A stretch of 36,565 nucleotides of DNA. It comes from Granulosicoccus sp. Its GTDB lineage: Bacteria; Pseudomonadota; Gammaproteobacteria; Granulosicoccales; Granulosicoccaceae. Within the stretch, counting starts at the first letter, position 1, and every line of letters begins with the position of its first letter. This document shows, one piece after another, positions 6,299 through 22,320 of this stretch. The stretch is taken from assembly GCA_020627685.1 (NCBI GenBank), contig JAHDGK010000026.1, positions 1-36,565 on the forward strand, in the 5' to 3' direction. Under the pieces are notes generated by a model, which ran no database searches, was not told the DNA's origin, and was given only the letters and a program-made list of their open reading frames with translations. The position numbers and the translations under genes are program-made.

Positions 6299-7707
6299 GC
6301 GACGAATACGTTTGGGTGATAGACGACGATCAGTCGATTCGCTGGGTTTTGGAAAAAACGCTCAAACAGGCTGGCATGCAGGTAAATGTGTTTGAGTCTG
6401 CCGATGAAGCCCTGGACACGATGCGTGGAAACGCATTAGCACCGGACGCTGTCATCAGCGATATCCGGATGCCGGGTTCAGACGGCCTGTCCTTGCTGAC
6501 TCAGATGAAAAGATCTCATCCCGATTTGCCGGTACTGATCATGACCGCCTTCTCAGATCTGGATAGTACCGTCTCAGCATTTGAGGCAGGTGCGTTCGAA
6601 TACATTCCCAAGCCGTTCGATGTAGATACGGTTATTGATCAGGTCAGACGAGCATGCAGCCTGCAAAAAGATCAGCGCAGTCAGGCAACCATACGACCCA
6701 AAGGACAATCACGTAACGATGAACCGGCAGAACTCATTGGTGATGCTCCAGCTATGCAGGATGTGTTCAAGGCTATCGGCAGACTTTCGCGATCAAAGAT
6801 CACTGTACTGATCAACGGCGAGAGCGGAACCGGTAAAGAACTTATCGCTAATGCCCTGCATCGTCATAGTCCGCGCGCGGATAAACCCTTTGTGGCACTG
6901 AACATGGCAGCGATTCCGCATGACCTTATGGAATCTGAATTATTCGGACATGAGAAGGGCTCGTTTACCGGCGCACAAAGTACTCGAATAGGACGCTTCG
7001 AACAATCGGACGGCGGTACGCTCTTTCTAGATGAGATTGGCGATATGCCGGCAACCCTACAAACGCGGTTGCTGCGTGTTTTGGCAGACGGACAGTTCTA
7101 TCGCGTAGGCGGACACACTCCCATAACGGTAGACGTGCGCATCATCGCGGCGACCCATCAAGATCTGGAAGCTCTGGTTGCAGAAAAGCGTTTCAGAGAA
7201 GATCTGTTTCACCGCCTTAACGTCATTCGCATCGAAGCACCACCTCTACGGGAAAGACGGGAAGATATCCCTCGCTTGCTTCGCCACTTTTTAATTAAAG
7301 CTGCAGAAGAACTCGGTGAAGAACCCAAGGTGATGACACCGGAACTCGAGTCCTATGTCAGCTCGCTCAGTTGGCCAGGCAATGTACGACAGCTTCAGAA
7401 CACAGCGCATTGGCTCACCGTCATGTCTGGTGGTACCGAGCTGGAAGTTGATGATATGCCTGCTCAAGTCAGAGACGAACCTGGAACCGTCGAGGTTGAT
7501 TGGGAGAGCGGTTTACGGCAATGGGCAAATCGCCAACTCAATGAGGGCAATACTGATTTATTGGGGATGGCTCAACCGGCTGTCGAGCGAATTCTTATTA
7601 AGTGCGCACTTAACAAGACACAAGACCGTCGGCAAGAAGCAGCCCGCTTGATCGGCTGGGGTAGAAATACACTGACCCGAAAAATTAAAGAACTTGAGAT
7701 GGAATAG
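6295..7707 (+). CDS. glnG: Nitrogen regulation response regulator NtrC
   Basis: Sigma-54-dependent activator of nitrogen-starvation genes. The N-terminal receiver domain (about 1-125) has the acidic pocket DDD and the phospho-acceptor Asp56 in VISDIRMPG. The AAA+ domain has Walker A GESGTGKE, the sigma-54-contacting loop GSFTGA, Walker B GGTLFLDEIGD and the arginine-finger region FREDLFHRLNVIRI. The C-terminus is a Fis-type helix-turn-helix (DRRQEAARLIGWGRNTLTRKI). 470 residues, standard for NtrC. It overlaps ntrB by 4 nt and probably acts on the two dyads at 5057-5103. It ends 21 nt from a convergent gene. Confidence 0.97.
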   Translation: MSDEYVWVIDDDQSIRWVLEKTLKQAGMQVNVFESADEALDTMRGNALAPDAVISDIRMPGSDGLSLLTQMKRSHPDLPVLIMTAFSDLDSTVSAFEAGAFEYIPKPFDVDTVIDQVRRACSLQKDQRSQATIRPKGQSRNDEPAELIGDAPAMQDVFKAIGRLSRSKITVLINGESGTGKELIANALHRHSPRADKPFVALNMAAIPHDLMESELFGHEKGSFTGAQSTRIGRFEQSDGGTLFLDEIGDMPATLQTRLLRVLADGQFYRVGGHTPITVDVRIIAATHQDLEALVAEKRFREDLFHRLNVIRIEAPPLRERREDIPRLLRHFLIKAAEELGEEPKVMTPELESYVSSLSWPGNVRQLQNTAHWLTVMSGGTELEVDDMPAQVRDEPGTVEVDWESGLRQWANRQLNEGNTDLLGMAQPAVERILIKCALNKTQDRRQEAARLIGWGRNTLTRKIKELEME

Positions 7708-12771: not shown

Positions 12772-13731
12772 ATGACAGTTATCGATGTTTTCAACGGCGA
12801 TGCGGACGGCATCTGCGCGCTGCACCAACTTAGACTCGCAGCCCCTTGTGAAAGTACGTTAATCACAGGCGTGAAGCGCGATATCGCATTGGTCAAGCAA
12901 ATCAAAGCTGAGGCTTCCGATAAGATCACGGTACTTGACGTATCGTTAGATAAAAATCGCGATGCCCTGCTACCGGTCCTCGATAGCGGTGCAGAGGTCA
13001 CTTACATTGATCATCATTTCCCAGGCGACATTCCAGAGCGCCAAAATCTAACGACGCACATCAATACCGATTCTGAGATGTGTACCGGCTTGATAGTCAA
13101 CGAACTACTCGGCGGTGAACATCTTGCCTGGGCCGTAACGGCGGCGTTTGGAGACAACCTTCTGACGACAGCAAGAACAGCCGCTGCTCCGCTTAATTTA
13201 TCTGAAGATGAACTAGAGAAACTCCAAACCTTAGGTACCTTGCTCAACTACAACGGCTATGGTTCGACGCTTGACGATTTGTACTTCCCACCAGCGGAAC
13301 TCTACAAACGAGTGCAACCTCACAGCTCACCTTTCTCTTTCATTAACGAGGACGGAGCCTTCACTACGCTTGCCGATGGTTTTAAAAGTGACCACGAAAG
13401 GGCGCTGTCGATAACGGCAGAGAGGGCAACGGACGATATCGCTATTTACATTTTCCCTAATGACGCCTTCGCCCGTAGGATCAGCGGCGTATACGCCAAT
13501 GAACTGGCTCAAGAAAATCCGACACGGGCGCACGCCCTGCTTAGTGAATTAGACGATGGCTCCTATTTAGTCAGTGTTCGCGCGCCGCTAAATAATCGCA
13601 CGGGCGCCGATGAACTGTGCCGACAGTTTGAAACGGGAGGTGGTCGCAAAGCTGCAGCCGGAATTAACAAACTACCGGCAACAGAGCTTGAAAAATTTGC
13701 CTCTGCTATGAGTTCTCAATTTCAAGCCTAG
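12772..13731 (+). CDS. DHH/DHHA1 family phosphoesterase
   Basis: 319 residues. The N-terminal DHH domain shows FNGDADGICAL (metal-binding Asp residues) and YIDHHFPG, the defining DHH motif; the C-terminal DHHA1 domain shows GGGRKAAAGI. The family includes nanoRNases, c-di-AMP phosphodiesterases and RecJ; this short version lacks RecJ-size extensions and its substrate is unknown, though a nano-RNA or phosphoanhydride is plausible (inference). Its place between pyrD and a small secreted protein gives little functional hint. Confidence 0.85.
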   Translation: MTVIDVFNGDADGICALHQLRLAAPCESTLITGVKRDIALVKQIKAEASDKITVLDVSLDKNRDALLPVLDSGAEVTYIDHHFPGDIPERQNLTTHINTDSEMCTGLIVNELLGGEHLAWAVTAAFGDNLLTTARTAAAPLNLSEDELEKLQTLGTLLNYNGYGSTLDDLYFPPAELYKRVQPHSSPFSFINEDGAFTTLADGFKSDHERALSITAERATDDIAIYIFPNDAFARRISGVYANELAQENPTRAHALLSELDDGSYLVSVRAPLNNRTGADELCRQFETGGGRKAAAGINKLPATELEKFASAMSSQFQA

Positions 13732-13743
13732 TGTTCACATCCC

Positions 13744-14412
13744 GTGTTACGTGTAACTACATTCATCGCCTTGATGGTTCTAACCTGTCTTGCTCATGCC
13801 GAACAGAGCATGGCAATACAAAGCCCGTTAAGAGTTGAAGGTACATTCACCAGGACCAGCGCAGATGCGCGATTAAATGGCAATGAACTTAAAACCACGT
13901 CTTCGGCAGTCACAGGCTTAGTCACTTATTACTTCCGGAAAGAAGTGTTCGGGCAACTGGGATATGGCAAACCGACACTCCACAGACGTGTGGTAAACGG
14001 GGAAATCATTCCGACTCAAAGCAGCGATACAAACTCATTGTTTTGGTACGGATTCGGATTTCGCTCACAACGTCAGGGAAGCACCAGTGACTACCTGGGA
14101 GTCGGCTTCAGATTTTCCGCAAGCATTGGTGAATTGGAAGATGACAACTCGTCTAAAACCTTAAGACTGTTCTCGCAAAAAGATACGTCACAGCGTTTGG
14201 GAGAATTGGAAGTCTCTATAGAATCCGGCAACAATGGCAGTATCAATAAACTTGGCGGAAAACATGTTTGGTTTTCAAGCAACGGGTTCGGCTTTGGCTT
14301 TCAATGGGCATTTGGCTCAGGTCGCAACGTAGAAGACTCAGGTGACGAAACCAGCTACCGCACGAGAGACGCTGGCATCGTCTTTATGTATCGCCCCAAG
14401 CTCTATAAATAA
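13744..14412 (+). CDS. Putative secreted/outer-membrane beta-barrel-like protein, unknown function
   Basis: 222 residues from GTG 13744, only 12 nt after the DHH gene. The signal peptide MLRVTTFIALMVLTCLAHA ends at an AHA-E cleavage site. The rest is rich in alternating aromatic/polar strands (VTYYFRKEVFGQLGYG, SLFWYGFGFRSQ, YLGVGFRFSASIG, NGFGFGFQWAFGSG) and closes with FMYRPKLYK. This looks like a small barrel of about eight strands in the outer membrane. I do not recognise the family. It is the last gene of the pyrD operon and converges on the deacetylase gene. Confidence 0.6.
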   Translation: MLRVTTFIALMVLTCLAHAEQSMAIQSPLRVEGTFTRTSADARLNGNELKTTSSAVTGLVTYYFRKEVFGQLGYGKPTLHRRVVNGEIIPTQSSDTNSLFWYGFGFRSQRQGSTSDYLGVGFRFSASIGELEDDNSSKTLRLFSQKDTSQRLGELEVSIESGNNGSINKLGGKHVWFSSNGFGFGFQWAFGSGRNVEDSGDETSYRTRDAGIVFMYRPKLYK

Positions 14413-14421
14413 TAAACGCGC

Positions 14422-15345
14422 TTAGGCATTCATAAGCTCTTTTATATGCGCAGCTCCACAACGGCCCAATGCGGGCAAATCGTATCCCCCCTCTAACATC
14501 GAAACAATTCGTCCGTTAGAGTGCCGGCTTGCAATATCGACGATTTGCTGAGTTATCCAAACGTAGTCTTCATCTTGTAGTTGCAAGTTGGCTAGTGGGT
14601 CGTGCGCGTGCGCATCAAAACCCGCACTAACAATAATCATTTCAGGGCTAAAAGACTCAAGAGCGGGTAACCAGGCATCTGTAATCGCTGCGCGAAACTC
14701 TGCGCTTCCCGTTGCAGATGGCAGAGGCACATTCACTCGCTGATTTTCAACGTTTGGCCTATATCCACCCGGATACAGAGGGTGTTCGAATGAGGAGCAG
14801 AAAAGAATACTGGCATCTCCCTCAACAATATCCTCAGTGCCATTTCCATGATGAACATCAAAATCAACAATAGCCACACGTTCCAGACCATGTGACTTAA
14901 TGGCATGCTTAGCAGCGATGGCCACATTGCCAAAAAAACAAAAACCCATGGCCTCTCTACGCTCCGCGTGGTGGCCAGGAGGGCGAACCAGGCAAAACGC
15001 ATTGCTAACATTGCCTGACATGACTTGATCTACGGCCAACACGCCTGCACCTGCACCACGCAATGCGGCTTCTAATGAAAACGGATTCATTGATGTATCG
15101 GCGTCTAACTGAACTGATCCAGTGGACGGTGAGCTGTTGCGAAGCAAATCGATGTAGCTTTGCGGGTGAGCCAGCAATACATGATTGACGTCGGCCAAAG
15201 GCGCTTCACTGTGCACCAGCTGCTCGTACAAACCTTGTTGCTTGAGCTGATCTGCAATGGCTGCGATGCGCTCTGGACATTCCGGATGTCCGGGGCTTAT
15301 TTCATGTTGAACGCAAACACTGTGAGATATCAAAGCCGTGGTCAT
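14422..15345 (-). CDS. Histone deacetylase family protein (class II-like, AcuC/HdaH-like)
   Basis: Zinc-dependent amidohydrolase of the arginase/deacetylase fold; bacterial members remove acetyl groups from protein lysines or from polyamines and similar small molecules. All catalytic motifs are intact: RPPGHHAE (His125, His126), [10 protein letters not shown] with zinc ligands Asp163 and His165, SAGFDAH with Asp244, and EGGYD with Tyr288. 307 residues, normal length. The ATG has AGG 7 nt upstream. It diverges, across only 76 bp, from a PatZ-type acetyltransferase, which suggests it is the eraser of the same modification (inference). Confidence 0.92.
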
Positions 15346-15421
15346 TGAATTACCTAAAAACTAAGAAAGAAACGTTTTGATCAATATACCAGCACAGTTA
15401 GCTCCTGTACTATCGTAAGTT
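15346..15421. promoter_or_regulatory. Shared divergent promoter region, deacetylase / acetyltransferase
   Basis: 76 bases separate the two divergent starts and must carry both promoters. The stretch is A/T-rich near TTGATCAATATA, but no -35/-10 pair with 16-18 bp spacing is clear by eye. The shortness itself suggests joint control. Confidence 0.45.
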
Positions 15422-17872
15422 ATGTCCACACTTCATCTTGATAAGTTGCTCGACCCCACTTCAGTCGTGGTTATAGGTGCGAGTGACCGTGCGGACTCTA
15501 TCGGATATTCCGTCACAAGAAATTTGCTGGGTACTCATTACACCGGCCAGATTCATCTCGTTAATCCGCGTTACAAGTCGGTGTTAGGCCACCCTTGCCT
15601 ACCCGATCTTAAATCCATTGAAGAAACACCCGACTTAGCCATTATCAGTACCCCTGCCAGGCTCTTAAAGAAAATCCTGACACAGTGTGCGAAGAAGAAA
15701 ATCAAAGTGGCTATGGTGATGACAGGCTCAAAGGAATCTCAACCATTAGGCGCTTTAGCACGCTCATTGGGAATTCGTATCATTGGCCCGCATAGCACTG
15801 GCCTTATCAGACCGGGCATCGGACTTAACGTCAGCTACAGTCAAAACAATCTCATACCGGGCTCACTCGCCATAGCCAGCCAGTCAACATCGCTGGGCAC
15901 CGCGATGCTCGACTGGGCTCAGACCAACAATATCGGTTTTTCAGGCGTCATACTCACTGGGGGCGACACTGACATTTGTCTTGCAGATATCATCGATCTA
16001 CTGGCAGAAGACCCCTCCACAAAGGCCATAATCGTGTACGTCGAAAGAGTCGGTGGCACTCGTAGTTTTCTCAGCGCCTTGAGTGCCGCTGCCCGATTAA
16101 AACCGGTCGTACTCATGCGTTCTACCAAAGAAGGCGCTCGCTACTGCGATGTACTAACGCGTTCCGGGCAAGTTTTCTCTTCTGACAACGTCTTCCAAAC
16201 CGCCTTGAACCGAGCGGGTGTGGTTCGTATCAGAACCTTTCAAAACCTATTCGCTGCTGCAAAAATTCTGTCCTCTGGTGCGCGAGTAAAAGGCAATCGG
16301 CTAGCAATTGTCAGTAACGGCGCGGCGCCTTCCATGATGGCCATAGAAAGACTGGACGTAAAACATTTTCAATTACCACGTCTGCTTGAAGAAAACCTCA
16401 TCAGTATTAAAAAAACTTTGGGCGAGAGCGCATCTGGCAGTAATCCCTTTGTACTGAGAAAACCTGAAAACTTACCCGCTCTATATTCGCAAGCGATAGA
16501 ACAACTACAGTCTTTTCCAAACATAGACGCTGTCTTGGTTATTTTCGTACCAGACTCGCGAAATAACGCTGCAGACATTACGAACGCTGTATTGAAACTT
16601 CCAAAGTCTAAGACACCCATACTGGCTTGTTGGATGGGAGACGCAAGCGTAAAAGATGCTCGGGAGACTCTCTCTGAAGCGGGCATTCCCTCCTTTAGAA
16701 CACCGGAGGCTGCTGTCGACGGATTTGATTTTTTAAACCGCTATTTCGTGAGTCAACAGCAACTTCTACAGCTACCTAACCCCACAGCAAGCAACACCAG
16801 AGCCGACGCAAACTCGGCAAGAAATCTTGTGTCAGACGCGATAGACAATGGGCAGCGACTTCTGGATGTTGAATCAACGCAAACCTTAATGGCTTTGTTT
16901 GATATTCCCACGCAGCCATCGCAAATCAAGCAAACAGCGACAGCAAGCATACAACAACAGCAAGATCGTCAACTGATAGTGTCCATCGTCCGCGACGCAA
17001 CATTCGGCCCCACGCTATCAGTAGGCATCGGCGGGCAGCTTGCAGCTGTTGTCACCCAACGTTCAGTTCAACTTCCTCCGCTTAACCGGTTTCTTATACA
17101 AGAGCTCTTACAAAGCCGCGATATAAGAAATTACATGGGGTGGTCGGGGCATACTGAATCAAAGGCATTCAATGACGTTGCACACATACTACGACGATTA
17201 TCTGAACTAGCCTGTGAAGTGCCCGATGTCTTTTTTCTGGAAATCTACCCCTTGGTTGTCACAGAAAACGGTGCAGTTGTATCGGATGTAACCGTTTGCC
17301 TTGAGCGATCAAAAATACAAAAGGTTTACGGTCACCTATCGATACACCCTTATCCACGACAGTGGATACGATCCATCGAACTTAAAAACGGATCGCCCGT
17401 TCAATTGCGACCGATTCGACCGGAAGATGCCAGCGGTATAAAAAACCTTGTGAAAGAGATGTCTCCGGAGTCTCGCTATTTTCGATTCATGCACGCCATC
17501 AACGAGCTGTCTCCGCAAATGCTCGCGCAATTCACCAAACTTGATTACGATCGGCAGATGGCATTCGTAGCAGTCGATCCGCTTGATGAGGTCATCGGTG
17601 TCAGCCGATATGTGATCAGCAACGATCGCCTCTTCGGAGAGTTCGCCATTTCCATTTCAGAAAACTGGAAATCACAGGGGCTCGCCTCTGCCTTAATGAA
17701 ACTGCTTCTCGAACACGCACGATCACAAGGTCTAGAAAGCTTGCAGGGCGATGTCCTCATGACCAATACACCCATGCAAGCACTCATGAAATCCTTAGGT
17801 TTCACGTCACGTCCAGACTCCGAGGACCCGGAAGTTCTAAGATTCCAATTCTCTTTAACTGAAACCTTATGA
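15422..17872 (+). CDS. PatZ/Pat-type protein lysine acetyltransferase (degenerate acyl-CoA synthetase + GNAT)
   Basis: 816 residues. The N-terminal two-thirds are an NDP-forming acyl-CoA synthetase-like module: CoA-binding VVVIGASDRADSIGYSV, succinyl-CoA-ligase-like IIGPHSTGLI and an ATP-grasp part. The C-terminus (about 660-816) is a GNAT domain (VQLRPIRPEDA, ESRYFRFMHAI, ISENWKSQGLASALM). In E. coli and Salmonella this protein acetylates acetyl-CoA synthetase and many other proteins. Two departures: the phospho-His of active synthetases (SHTGAL) reads TRSGQV, with Arg247 in its place, and about 65-75 residues holding the ATP-binding Lys and HKSDVGGV segment are missing around residues 500-520. 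The module is probably only a sensor. The stop overlaps the next gene by 4 nt. Confidence 0.88.
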   Translation: MSTLHLDKLLDPTSVVVIGASDRADSIGYSVTRNLLGTHYTGQIHLVNPRYKSVLGHPCLPDLKSIEETPDLAIISTPARLLKKILTQCAKKKIKVAMVMTGSKESQPLGALARSLGIRIIGPHSTGLIRPGIGLNVSYSQNNLIPGSLAIASQSTSLGTAMLDWAQTNNIGFSGVILTGGDTDICLADIIDLLAEDPSTKAIIVYVERVGGTRSFLSALSAAARLKPVVLMRSTKEGARYCDVLTRSGQVFSSDNVFQTALNRAGVVRIRTFQNLFAAAKILSSGARVKGNRLAIVSNGAAPSMMAIERLDVKHFQLPRLLEENLISIKKTLGESASGSNPFVLRKPENLPALYSQAIEQLQSFPNIDAVLVIFVPDSRNNAADITNAVLKLPKSKTPILACWMGDASVKDARETLSEAGIPSFRTPEAAVDGFDFLNRYFVSQQQLLQLPNPTASNTRADANSARNLVSDAIDNGQRLLDVESTQTLMALFDIPTQPSQIKQTATASIQQQQDRQLIVSIVRDATFGPTLSVGIGGQLAAVVTQRSVQLPPLNRFLIQELLQSRDIRNYMGWSGHTESKAFNDVAHILRRLSELACEVPDVFFLEIYPLVVTENGAVVSDVTVCLERSKIQKVYGHLSIHPYPRQWIRSIELKNGSPVQLRPIRPEDASGIKNLVKEMSPESRYFRFMHAINELSPQMLAQFTKLDYDRQMAFVAVDPLDEVIGVSRYVISNDRLFGEFAISISENWKSQGLASALMKLLLEHARSQGLESLQGDVLMTNTPMQALMKSLGFTSRPDSEDPEVLRFQFSLTETL

Positions 17873-18741
17873 GCCCACAAGTCGAACCCTTAAGCCTAAG
17901 CATAGACGGTCGTACTATCGCCGGTATACGCCAGCGTGATTCTGCCGTTGAAGATGCTCCCAAAATGCTTTGTGTTCATGGATGGCTGGACAATGCAAAC
18001 AGCTTCGTTCCCCTAATGCCTTACTTGCCGGCGTTCGATCTAGTCGCCATCGACCTTCCAGGTTGTGGCTACAGCGATGCTTTAGAGCAAGGCTACTCGT
18101 TACACGAACTGTGCTATCAACTGACTCGAATAATCGAGGCGCTAGGGTGGTCAGAATGCCATGTGCTCGGGCATTCTCTGGGAGGCTGCATAGCGCCCCT
18201 ACTAGCAGTCGCCTCCCCTAACATTGTGCAAACCTTGTTATTAGTGGAAGCGATCGGCCCGGTGAGCGAATCAGCTGAACAGTTGCCCACTCGCATGGCT
18301 AAGGCCATGAGTCACCGACTCGACCCGTCACGATTCAACTCACGACTATTCAACAACAAGCAGGAAGCTATCGAATCTCGTCTCAGAGCCGCAAAAATGG
18401 CTCAGAGCTCGGCAAAACTTATCATCGATAGGCAAGTTAATGCCGAGGGAGACGGGTACCGCTGGAGATTCGACCCTCGATGGCGCACAGCCTCAGCCCA
18501 GTACCAAACCGAAGAGCAAGTTCAAGAAGTCTTAAAGGCCGTGACCTGCCCTGCACTCACGATTCTGGCGGACGACGGTATTATCCTAAATCGGCCGGAA
18601 ACCAATGATCGCCTCAGCGCACTGAGAAACAGGCAGTCAGTGAGCCTGCCCGGACAACATCATCTTCACATGGATACGCCTGAGCCGGTAGCAGCCGCCA
18701 TCAACGGATACCTGCAAACTTTGCCGGCCCTGGGTGGTTAA
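17869..18741 (+). CDS. Alpha/beta-fold hydrolase
   Basis: 290 residues, cytoplasmic. The cap-type hydrolase fold shows VHGWLDNANSF (oxyanion HG), VAIDLPGCGYSD, the nucleophile elbow GHSLGG (Ser103), and a C-terminal catalytic His in PGQHHLHMD. The acid is likely in TILADDGI. It resembles MhpC-type and serine esterase enzymes, but the substrate is not evident. Its start overlaps the stop of the acetyltransferase gene (ATGA), so the two are coupled in translation and may share a pathway. Confidence 0.88.
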   Translation: MSPQVEPLSLSIDGRTIAGIRQRDSAVEDAPKMLCVHGWLDNANSFVPLMPYLPAFDLVAIDLPGCGYSDALEQGYSLHELCYQLTRIIEALGWSECHVLGHSLGGCIAPLLAVASPNIVQTLLLVEAIGPVSESAEQLPTRMAKAMSHRLDPSRFNSRLFNNKQEAIESRLRAAKMAQSSAKLIIDRQVNAEGDGYRWRFDPRWRTASAQYQTEEQVQEVLKAVTCPALTILADDGIILNRPETNDRLSALRNRQSVSLPGQHHLHMDTPEPVAAAINGYLQTLPALGG

Positions 18742-19026: not shown

Positions 19027-22000
19027 GTGAACAATCAGCCTCGTATACTTAACTTCGACGATGTCATCGAACTGTGTGGTTCCGTGGCCACATCGCGTGG
19101 ACAAGTCTATAAAGCCAGTGGTGCTGTTCAAGAAGTTGATTGGATACCCGATGGCAATATACTGTGCGGAACGGTGCAAGGCAGCGAGTCCGAGCCCTAC
19201 CACGCTAGAGTCACTATTGCGCCACACCGATTTGACGGTGAGTGCACCTGCCCAGCTCATTACAACTGCAAACATGTTGCAGCTACGCTGCTGAGTTGGA
19301 TTGATCAACAAACTGCATCTCCGACTGTCGACGATCAAATGCTACGTGCGGTCAATCGCTGGCTCCAGAAAGTGGTTGAGCAAGGGCGCAAAGCCGCACC
19401 ACTACACGAGCATCATGAGCCCGGCGAACCATTGCTGTTTTATCAACTTGATAAGACTCCGCTGACTCAAAGCAGTAGCGGCATCACGCTGCAGATATTG
19501 CAAAGCCGACTGCTTAAACGCGGCGGCTACGGCAAAGAAACACCATACCGATATAACGGACATTACTATCACCCGGATTGGGTGCTACAAAGCGACCGCG
19601 CTATCCTTGAACTTGCCATCGGCAAGCAAAGCGATTTTTCTTATCGTGAACTCACCATCGAAGGCGACATCGGTCACCTGCTGATGAACAAGCTGGTAGA
19701 CACGGGCAGAACCTTCTGGGGATCGGACAGAGAAAAGCCGCTTACCCGAGGCACAACCCGCACTCTGGACTTTAACTGGCACCTGAAAGATGACAACAGC
19801 TTCCAACTGACGACTCAGCTGCCGGAGGTTGAGGATTGGACACTGATCCCATCAGACCCACCCTGGTATCTTGACTCTTCGCAAGTTTGCGCAGGGCAAC
19901 TCGACAAAGCCCCTCATGTAGGCCTGCTGTCACAGTTTATTGAAGCACCACCGCTGCCAGAGGCACACGCACAGGCAGTCAGTAATTACCTTGCCTCGCG
20001 CCTGCCTGACAGCACGCTACCGTTGCCAAGAGAACCCAATTTCGTCCGGATTGATGAAGCACCGCAACCCGTATTGGTGTTGCAGTCCCGCGATGACAGC
20101 GCTGATATCCGCGACTTCTACGCATCTATAAAATTTCGGTATGCGGATTACCTGCTGCCTTTTGACGGTATGGAAGCTGATGCGACCCTTGAGGGAAAAA
20201 CAACCGACGGGAAACCTCTAGTCTTAAAAAGAGATCTGCCGGCTGAGATTCGATATGCGGTGGATTTCGGTAAGCACTTCCCCGAATTCGAAGCAGCAAC
20301 GTCAAACGATGCGGAATTTTATTCCAAAGCCGACAAGCAACCACGATCCAAAGAGGTTCAGCGTATCGCGCATTCCTGGCGCGAGCTGTTAAATGAGCGA
20401 ACAGAACTGAGCAATCGGGGTTGGACAGTACAAATACGTGAGCCTTTCGATCTGAATTTCAAATCGGTCACACAGATTGAGGCCACAGTAAGCGAAACCA
20501 CATCAAACTGGTTTGATATGGCATTGAAGCTCCGCCATGACGATCAGCAGTTTGATCTGCTACCACTCGTGATTGATTGGCTTCAAGGGGATTCGCGCGA
20601 TAGCTCTATCCTGTTACAAGCCGACGACGGCCAATGGTTGGAAGTTGCACCTGAATTGTTTGCACCCGTTGCAGAAACGCTCATGGAGCTTTACGACGAT
20701 CCGAGCGCAGCAGAACACTTCAGATTACCAAGGCAACGCGCCGGCACTCTGGACACATTGGAAAGTCATTGGCAAAAACAAGGAGTCAGTGTTGCTTGGA
20801 ATCAAGCACAAAACGTTTTCGATCTTGCTGAGAAACTCCGTAATTTCGATGGCATTGAAAATTCAGATGCCCCCGTTAACGTCAATGCGACGCTTCGCCC
20901 TTACCAGCTCGAGGGTATGGCGTGGCTGGGTTTTCTTGCAGAGTTCGGTTTCAACGGCATCCTTGCCGATGACATGGGTTTGGGGAAAACCGTACAAACT
21001 CTGGGGCACTTGCAACAAGAGCGAGACATCGGCCGACTGACCAAGCCCACGCTTATCGTTGCACCCACCAGCTTATTAGGAAACTGGCAACGTGAAGCCG
21101 CCCGCTTTACACCAAACCTAAGCACCTTGATTTGGCATGGCACCCAACGCAAATTAGGCGACTTAACCACAAACCCGATTGATATTGTTATTACAAGCTA
21201 TGCGTTGGTCACGCGTGATATCAATCTGCTCGGCCAGCAAGATTTTGGGTGTGTCGTACTCGATGAAGCACAGGCCATCAAAAACCCAACAGCGAAAGTC
21301 ACTCAGGCACTAAAAACTCTCACCATTGAGAGACGCATCTGCCTCACAGGTACGCCGTTGGAAAATCATTTGGGCGAACTCTGGTCGCAGTTCGATTTTC
21401 TGATGCCAGGATTCCTGGGTTCACGTAAACATTTCAATCGATACTTCAGAACTCCGATAGAGAATCACGCAAGCGTTGAGAGACAATCCAGGCTAAGCGC
21501 ACTTATCCGCCCATTTTTACTGCGTCGACGCAAAGAACAGGTGGCCACTGAGTTACCGCCAAAGACTGAGATTATTCGCGAAGTCACGCTCGAACCAACA
21601 CAAGCGCGCTTATACGAGAGTATTCGCATTAGTATGGAACAACGGGTACGGGCATTATTGGCTGAACGCGGATTGGCTCGTAGTCACATTGAAATGTTGG
21701 ATGCGCTTCTTAAGCTGCGTCAAACCTGTTGTCACCCTGCGCTGGTCAAACTCGATAGCGCGCGCGGCATAGAAGAGTCCGCAAAGACGGACTTACTCAT
21801 GTCAATGCTCGACGAGCTCATCAGTGAAGGTAAGAAAATTTTACTGTTTTCCCAGTTTACTGAAATGCTGGGACTGATAGAGGCTGAACTCAATAAACGC
21901 GAGATACGCTACGCCAAACTTACCGGCCGAACCCGTAAACGGGATGAAGTTATTGACTCATTCCAACACGGAGATATTCCGCTATTTTTAATTAGTCTGA

Positions 22001-22320
22001 AAGCCGGTGGCACCGGATTAAACCTGACAGCAGCAGACACTGTGATTCACTACGATCCGTGGTGGAACCCTGCTGTTGAAAATCAGGCAAGCGATCGCGC
22101 CCATAGAATCGGACAGAACAAACCGGTATTCATCTACAAGCTGGTTGCCAGCAATACGGTAGAAGAAAAAATTATGGCCATGCAGGCCCAGAAAAAGCAG
22201 TTGGCAGATCAAACTGTTAATCAGACAGAAGCAACCGCTATGCAAAATCTAACGGCTGACGATATTCTTGATTTGTTTGCAGCCTCCGAAGAGGATGACT
22301 CTGCTTCATCCGCTGCGTAA
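19027..22320 (+). CDS. SWIM zinc-finger SNF2-family helicase/ATPase
   Basis: 1097 residues. A SWIM zinc finger (CTCPAHYNCKHVAA; Cys73, Cys75, Cys81, His83) leads, followed by a long bacterial-SNF2-specific region, then the two-lobed SF2 ATPase: RPYQLEGMAWLGFL (Q-like), DDMGLGKTVQTL (Walker A, near 648-659), VLDEAQAIKN (Walker B, DEAQ), CLTGTPLENHLGEL, and the C-lobe with SLKAGGTGLNL and DRAHRIGQ. Such proteins remodel DNA-protein or RNA polymerase complexes (RapA relatives) and act as double-stranded DNA translocases rather than true helicases. GTG start. The 3' end overlaps that of the convergent transporter gene by 15 nt. Confidence 0.92.
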   Translation: MNNQPRILNFDDVIELCGSVATSRGQVYKASGAVQEVDWIPDGNILCGTVQGSESEPYHARVTIAPHRFDGECTCPAHYNCKHVAATLLSWIDQQTASPTVDDQMLRAVNRWLQKVVEQGRKAAPLHEHHEPGEPLLFYQLDKTPLTQSSSGITLQILQSRLLKRGGYGKETPYRYNGHYYHPDWVLQSDRAILELAIGKQSDFSYRELTIEGDIGHLLMNKLVDTGRTFWGSDREKPLTRGTTRTLDFNWHLKDDNSFQLTTQLPEVEDWTLIPSDPPWYLDSSQVCAGQLDKAPHVGLLSQFIEAPPLPEAHAQAVSNYLASRLPDSTLPLPREPNFVRIDEAPQPVLVLQSRDDSADIRDFYASIKFRYADYLLPFDGMEADATLEGKTTDGKPLVLKRDLPAEIRYAVDFGKHFPEFEAATSNDAEFYSKADKQPRSKEVQRIAHSWRELLNERTELSNRGWTVQIREPFDLNFKSVTQIEATVSETTSNWFDMALKLRHDDQQFDLLPLVIDWLQGDSRDSSILLQADDGQWLEVAPELFAPVAETLMELYDDPSAAEHFRLPRQRAGTLDTLESHWQKQGVSVAWNQAQNVFDLAEKLRNFDGIENSDAPVNVNATLRPYQLEGMAWLGFLAEFGFNGILADDMGLGKTVQTLGHLQQERDIGRLTKPTLIVAPTSLLGNWQREAARFTPNLSTLIWHGTQRKLGDLTTNPIDIVITSYALVTRDINLLGQQDFGCVVLDEAQAIKNPTAKVTQALKTLTIERRICLTGTPLENHLGELWSQFDFLMPGFLGSRKHFNRYFRTPIENHASVERQSRLSALIRPFLLRRRKEQVATELPPKTEIIREVTLEPTQARLYESIRISMEQRVRALLAERGLARSHIEMLDALLKLRQTCCHPALVKLDSARGIEESAKTDLLMSMLDELISEGKKILLFSQFTEMLGLIEAELNKREIRYAKLTGRTRKRDEVIDSFQHGDIPLFLISLKAGGTGLNLTAADTVIHYDPWWNPAVENQASDRAHRIGQNKPVFIYKLVASNTVEEKIMAMQAQKKQLADQTVNQTEATAMQNLTADDILDLFAASEEDDSASSAA

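Follow-up and report, generated by a model that had tools for sequence, protein, structure and literature searches.

In Bacillus subtilis, the acetyltransferase AcuA and the Zn-dependent deacetylase AcuC are described as products of one operon, acuABC (PMC8556138), which lies next to acsA. The B. subtilis sirtuin SrtN is reported to act on acetyl-CoA synthetase (Acs) as well (PMC6640162, PMC11254643), and AcuC has been placed in the class I-like cluster 2c (PMC11532494). In Rhodopseudomonas palustris, the HDAC-type enzyme LdaA is listed as reversing the acetylation of acyl-CoA synthetases by RpPat, alongside the sirtuin SrtN (PMC6640162, Table 1). RpPat is classed as a GNAT-only (type IV) enzyme (PMC8556138). 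Enteric bacteria combine Pat (PatZ) with CobB, an NAD-dependent sirtuin. Here we analyze a stretch of 36,565 nucleotides from Granulosicoccus sp. (contig JAHDGK010000026.1, hereafter the window) in which a gene for an HDAC-family enzyme, the putative eraser, adjoins a gene for a PatZ-type acetyltransferase, the putative writer. As the first-pass annotation of this DNA had placed them, the two start codons are 76 bp apart (15346-15421) on opposite strands.

This locus shares features with each of the described systems. Like acuABC, it brings together genes for an acetyltransferase and a Zn-dependent deacetylase in an organism with an extra sirtuin, and the comparison with acuA/acuC made in the first-pass annotation is apt as an analogy. 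Unlike acuABC, the window eraser is class II/cluster 1-like, whereas AcuC is class I-like; the writer is a large type I Pat, whereas AcuA is a small GNAT; and the window pair is divergent, with no acs or acuB neighbor. Compared by description, the R. palustris enzymes also consist of an HDAC-type eraser and a Pat-type writer with a sirtuin alongside. However, RpPat is GNAT-only and the window writer is type I, although two other loci (L036 and L211) do pair an HDAC with a GNAT-only gene. Enteric Pat has the same type I architecture as the window writer, which is 30-31% identical to E. coli PatZ, but the enteric eraser is a sirtuin and E. coli PatZ retains a full-length ATP-grasp domain. On this evidence, the pair would work like acuA/acuC but with both enzymes from different protein branches, and it is therefore not a member of the acu system.

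We consider it likely that the two genes form a reversible protein-lysine acylation module that controls AMP-forming acyl-CoA synthetases. This is supported directly by both genes being open with their catalytic residues in place, by an adjacency that is conserved through many changes of state and in several orientations, and by target motifs in the genome. The conserved writer-eraser neighborhood suggests that the pair acts as one on-off switch.

The HDAC-family gene had been annotated as having all its zinc and catalytic residues intact, and we find the same. The protein of 307 residues matches Pfam Hist_deacetyl (PF00850) at 6.6e-89 over profile positions 1-297 of 298. RPPGHH (121-126), D163/H165, D244 and EGGY (285-288) are intact and invariant in a 37-row alignment, and they include the features that define the family: the H125/H126 dyad, the zinc ligands D163, H165 and D244, and the catalytic tyrosine Y288. 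Enzymes of this kind go by the name class II. The AlphaFold model has a mean predicted local distance difference test score (pLDDT) of 93.2. Its nearest solved structure is 5ji5, an HDAC superfamily protein from Burkholderia phymatum (Z 50.2, root-mean-square deviation (rmsd) 1.2 over 304 residues, 52% identity), followed by HdaH-type enzymes and HDAC6, with HDAC10 and acetylpolyamine amidohydrolase lower. These fold comparisons, like those for the writer, are a rescoring of Foldseek matches and not full searches; the top chains belonged to the HDAC family for the eraser and were acyl-CoA ligase or GNAT chains for the writer. The window HDAC is shorter than HdaH-type chains of sub-cluster 1b (307 vs 365-375 residues). 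Residues 1-307 of the model align with residues 3-332 of P. aeruginosa HDAH, which is about 23 residues longer over this span.

In an analysis of the family, RPPXHH together with EGGY is tied to deacetylation and not to long-chain deacylation, RPA (RPAGHH) marks small-molecule hydrolases, and polyamine preference is linked to a gatekeeper Glu or PIS (PMC11532494); the structure code 5ji5 does not appear in that paper. The gatekeeper position of the window HDAC, taken from an alignment with the PKG of HDAC6 CD1, is P250-L251-A252. Neither the PIS motif of ApaH cluster 4 nor the Glu of HDAC10 is found at this position, where the alignment to HDAC6 places a Leu. From RPPGHH, EGGY and the P-L-A gatekeeper, we therefore predict that the window HDAC is a protein lysine deacetylase.

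The adjoining gene is a Pat-type acetyltransferase gene by its domains, as first annotated. Its product of 816 residues carries Pfam CoA_binding, Succ_CoA_lig and GNAT domains and, over profile positions 101-220 of 221 only, ATP-grasp_5. Residue E740 of the writer corresponds to E809 of E. coli PatZ, a position that is Glu in 42 of 44 rows and Asp in 2 of 44. The genome has no other strong PatZ-type match; the second-ranking one is at 5.8e-9 with 20% identity over residues 4-395. The writer model, built from 12 sequences and with a mean pLDDT of only 77.8, can be superposed on E. coli PatZ with 780-783 residues aligned (30-31% identity, Z 32, rmsd 5.0-5.4). The modeled GNAT domain aligns over 163 residues with the S. 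lividans Pat GNAT of 4u5y (Z 22.9, rmsd 2.1), which was solved together with the C-terminal domain of Acs.

We examined how often the two genes are neighbors. A close HDAC orthologue is present in 16 of 17 same-genus relatives, and the writer is divergent beside it in all 16; the seventeenth relative (G007) is 68% complete. In a sample of 230 genomes from the class (cut-offs E <=1e-75 for the HDAC and E <=1e-60 for the writer), 50 encode the HDAC, 56 the writer and 38 both, a co-occurrence with p 1.9e-19, uncorrected for relatedness or genome size. The genes are adjacent in 19 of these 38 genomes, counting that of the window, where about 0.12 would be expected for an assumed genome of 3.4 Mb. 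One genome (G064) has two pairs, and the 20 adjacent pairs comprise 16 divergent, 3 writer-first and 1 convergent. A look with profile hidden Markov models added, outside the 19, adjacent genes in G099, G195, G079 (at 2.5 kb) and G147, where the partner is GNAT-only. In a phylum sample of 299 genomes (cut-offs 1e-70 and 1e-50), which shares genomes with the class sample and also contains that of the window, both genes occur in 62 genomes and are adjacent in 13, and within the class of the window they are adjacent in 12 of 30. Among 80 loci from GTDB, several of them cut short, a PAT-like or GNAT gene lies no more than 2.5 kb from the HDAC in at least 14. These 14 pairs are nine divergent, one of them with a GNAT-only gene (L036), and five in tandem with the HDAC first, all five from one betaproteobacterial clade.

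As a control, PatZ and SIR2 genes were neighbors in none of the 21 genomes with both, and their nearest starts were 18.7 kb apart. On a tree of 144 HDACs, made by a quick method and with one bad row kept (L069, 12% of columns), the label "writer beside it" undergoes 19 changes, nine or more of them on well-supported branches; this tree and the writer tree described below are both quick searches, and change counts alone do not separate gain from loss. The adjacency is not a matter of chance and lies far above expectation, and passive synteny does not readily account for the turnover of the label across several orientations. The first-pass annotation had named conserved adjacency in relatives as a check on its proposal, and the genus and the class sample bear it out. 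Searches of open-access literature, with subscription papers mostly outside the coverage, turned up no account of Pat and HDAC genes adjoining each other in proteobacteria.

The partner of the HDAC varies at some loci. In L036 (upstream of 6001) and L211 (HDAC 6491-7537), the neighbor of the HDAC is not a full PatZ-type writer but a GNAT-only gene. Both loci look as if the writer had been exchanged, and a full writer is encoded at another place in the genome of L211 (G147). At G501:C36:32504-34348, two genes for HDACs of this family stand in tandem, 6 nt apart by their match coordinates. L006, L028 and L043 come from metagenome bins whose titles name Klebsiella pneumoniae and Bordetella parapertussis; their HDACs group with other proteobacteria, and the titles may be mislabeled.

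Candidate targets are encoded in the same genome. It has a canonical Acs (1047 bits vs a cut-off of 725), on another contig than the pair, with PKTRSGKIMRR near its end. A (S/T)GK motif lies near the C-terminus in eight of the ten best acyl-CoA synthetase matches of the genome, Acs included. Such motifs are the classical context of a Pat target. Acs switching is thus the most likely use of the pair, in analogy to AcuA/AcuC and RpPat/LdaA: the writer would turn Acs off, and the HDAC would turn it on. In the mechanism that we propose, whose enzymatic activities, shared substrates and acyl-CoA sensing we infer, the PatZ-type protein would sense acyl-CoA through its N-terminal CoA-binding/flavodoxin-like domains. 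When acetyl-CoA is plentiful, the GNAT domain would turn off Acs and related AMP-forming acyl-CoA synthetases by acetylating their catalytic lysine. The adjoining Zn-dependent HDAC would then hydrolyze the acetyl group and turn the synthetases on again without consuming NAD+. Two AMP-forming synthetase-like regions of this genome, G000:C113:11613-13142 and G000:C37:25597-27135, have one and two in-frame TAA codons, respectively, and are possible pseudogenes or assembly errors.

Several observations weigh against a synthetase-controlling module. The HDAC and the writer are apart in the other 19 of the 38 class-sample genomes with both, 12 genomes of that sample have the HDAC with no writer at the cut-off (G099 and G195 have a weaker adjoining match), and 18 have the writer without this HDAC. 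Outside the class, just 1 of 32 phylum-sample genomes with both genes has them adjacent. PatZ co-occurs with SIR2 as well (21 genomes, p 3e-4, class sample), and since the genome of the window also encodes a sirtuin and two HDAC-family proteins that are more distant, this HDAC is not necessarily the sole eraser. Truncation of the ATP-grasp domain could have made the writer less active, since PatZ activity is described as requiring the N-terminal domain (PMC8556138). Finally, no acyl-CoA synthetase gene was matched beside the pair within the window. This last point would also fit a functional writer-eraser pair whose main targets are other proteins, such as transcription factors, nucleoid proteins or ribosomal proteins, and PatZ-type enzymes are able to modify other proteins. 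We regard such targets as rather improbable, since the (S/T)GK lysine motif is present in Acs and in seven more of the ten best matches to AMP-forming synthetases and the GNAT model matches the Pat GNAT solved with the Acs C-terminal domain.

The role of the HDAC could also be different. If it were a small-molecule amidohydrolase acting on polyamines, acetoin-like compounds or xenobiotics, adjacency would reflect only a shared acetyl-CoA/acetate regulon. Some cluster-1 enzymes are said to have turned to small molecules, and the polyamine enzymes of cluster 4 likewise have RPP and EGGY (PMC11532494). Consistent with such a role, the neighbors of the HDAC are scattered where the writer is not adjacent: among the families listed, MoxR-type AAA ATPases (15/156) and polyprenyl synthetases (7/156) lead in a scan that covered 156 of 161 proteins from writer-less loci, and AMP-binding enzymes account for 2/80 in the first set. 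However, the second Pro of RPPGHH is retained, in contrast to the RPAGHH of small-molecule hydrolases, the gatekeeper is Leu and not Glu or PIS, and among solved relatives 5ji5, HDAC6 and HdaH come first, with the polyamine enzymes ranking lower. Together these features make a small-molecule enzyme a poor candidate. Least probable of all, to our minds, is that the adjacency is inherited synteny and functionally meaningless. The order pyrD-DHH-HDAC-PAT-ABH (PAT, writer; ABH, alpha/beta hydrolase) is indeed retained in many members of the genus, but divergent, writer-first, eraser-first and convergent pairs are all found, none of the other window genes that served as probes turned up next to the pair outside the genus, the label changes 19 times on the HDAC tree, and the PatZ-SIR2 control gave 0/21.

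The window writer is about 70 residues short within its ATP-grasp domain, which the first-pass annotation had missed. The equivalent of residues 510-576 of E. coli PatZ (886 aa) is absent; this segment is the A-lobe and includes the GYPVALK and HKSE signatures, leaving the window writer with an incomplete ATP-grasp domain by comparison with E. coli PatZ. The A-lobe is also lost in the closest relative, L171, and retained in 14 other aligned genus rows. L239 and L240, whose writers are divergent to an HDAC, lack the same stretch, as do L241-L245. In a writer tree of 62 rows, from which the deletion columns were excluded, the character changes three times, all forced by supported branches, and these changes would most simply be three separate losses. 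The deletion marks a variant of the PatZ-type writer, as two other PatZ lineages share it. The writer frame is open in both deletion-sharing species, the window and L171 (nonsynonymous divergence, dN, 0.20; synonymous divergence, dS, undefined). Over six genes compared between these two, dN is 0.10-0.20 and dS is undefined for all six, which we read as saturation. The writer alignment was made without L183, L191, L196 and L202, which were cut or lost by a simple open reading frame (ORF) caller, and the tree without L246 and L251, for which antisense ORFs had been picked.

Active NDP-forming acyl-CoA synthetases have a phosphorylatable histidine in the SHTG motif, which has a catalytic role. 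In the window writer this residue is Arg. Counted by alignment column, with the motif aligned to the ADP-forming ligases 8wzu and 2csu, the position in 16 genus rows is Arg in 14, Gln in one and His in one. Among non-genus rows, the first set has His in 25 of 27, and those HDAC-adjacent rows of the phylum sample that could be read have it in 2 of 10 (27/37 together); E. coli PatZ lacks it. According to a review, the catalytic ligase histidine is missing from type I Pats (PMC8556138). With the histidine kept in 27 of 37 non-genus partners, many HDAC-paired writers may therefore remain active ligases, and the window writer looks reduced towards a sensor. A wider view of the lineage is possible, although we think it tentative and would not expect it to hold in full. 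A self-contained lysine-acylation module of writer and eraser would have been repeatedly assembled and rearranged across the class, with a writer that was originally a working ADP-forming acyl-CoA ligase fused to GNAT. Non-genus partners that keep the histidine could then make as well as use acyl-CoA, and the window form would be an end point at which the ligase had been reduced to an ATP-independent acyl-CoA sensor, a reduction that the writer tree shows three times.

The first-pass annotation had set an HDAC in this organism against the CobB of enteric bacteria and proposed a check for cobB. The genome has one SIR2 match, and the HDAC as sole replacement of CobB in this organism is ruled out. 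Yet in the class sample no SIR2 match was detected in 13 of the 19 genomes with an adjacent pair; SIR2 was present in the other 6, and in 10 of the 19 genomes where both genes are apart. The alpha/beta hydrolase, which had been suggested as a further component, is a constant neighbor within the genus only. It follows the writer in each of the 17 genus loci that extend far enough (the sequence of L183 stops within the writer), with gaps of -65 to 34 nt and a 4-nt overlap in eight loci. At the blast thresholds used, it was not beside the writer in the same-family locus L187 or in other non-genus loci, and we rejected it as a general component of the module.

The coordinates of the locus are given in Table 1. 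In the intergenic region, a -10-like TATATT on the minus strand (15383-15388) faces the HDAC and a -10-like TACTAT (15408-15413) faces the writer, 8 nt upstream of its ATG; both were selected after inspection. Across 18 genus loci (the window, L002 and L171-L186), with motifs picked post hoc and start codons assigned by pattern, TAnnATC occurs <=25 nt upstream of the writer ATG in 13 (shuffle mean 0.35) and TGnTATA <=70 nt upstream of the HDAC start in 12 (shuffle mean 0.48). These counts suggest conserved -10 elements and a putatively leaderless writer mRNA. A sigma-70 scan of the intergenic region returned zero sites. Mutually exclusive overlapping promoters were considered and rejected: some 20 bp separate the -10-like motifs in the window, but their spacing is very variable among relatives.

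Table 1. Positions of the eraser, the writer and associated features in the window.
Feature	Position	Strand	Remarks
HDAC-family (class II type) lysine deacetylase, predicted	14422-15345	-	307 aa; Pfam, catalytic motifs, model
HDAC motifs on DNA	RPPGHH 14968-14985; EGGY 14482-14493	-	
Divergent intergenic region	15346-15421	.	76 bp; two genus-conserved -10-like motifs
PatZ-type (type I GNAT) protein lysine acetyltransferase, predicted	15422-17872	+	816 aa; domains, alignment, model
Writer CoA-binding and Succ_CoA_lig (flavodoxin-like) domains, probable acyl-CoA sensor	15461-16270	+	ligase histidine position is Arg
ATP-grasp remnant of the writer	16946-17299	+	equivalent of E. coli PatZ 510-576 missing at about 16949
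GNAT catalytic domain of the writer	17402-17809	+	E740 codon 17639-17641, aligned with E. coli PatZ E809
Alpha/beta hydrolase	17869-18741	+	290 aa; 4-nt overlap with the writer stop

Other genes flank the pair. A DHH/DHHA1-family protein (12772-13731) is encoded immediately after pyrD and lies between pyrD and the HDAC in 12 of 16 fetched genus loci. Between the DHH gene and the HDAC is a 222-aa ORF (13744-14412) with no Pfam or NCBIfam match, which was matched in L171 only among the fetched genus loci. A SNF2-family helicase of 1097 aa (19027-22320), with a weak SWIM zinc-finger match, is near the hydrolase in 8 of 16 fetched genus loci and opposite to it in strand in L176 and L180.

In many bacterial acetylation systems, erasers have yet to be matched to writers, and a conserved gene pair makes this link directly testable. 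Named carriers of the pair include Sedimenticola selenatireducens BK-1 (L077) and Ectothiorhodospira shaposhnikovii DSM 243 (L047). The naturally shortened writers point to a possibly dispensable part of the PatZ ligase domain. If the pair is indeed a reversible acylation module, it would be an NAD-independent counterpart to CobB, and bacteria would have reached the acuA/acuC arrangement twice, from different branches of both enzyme families.

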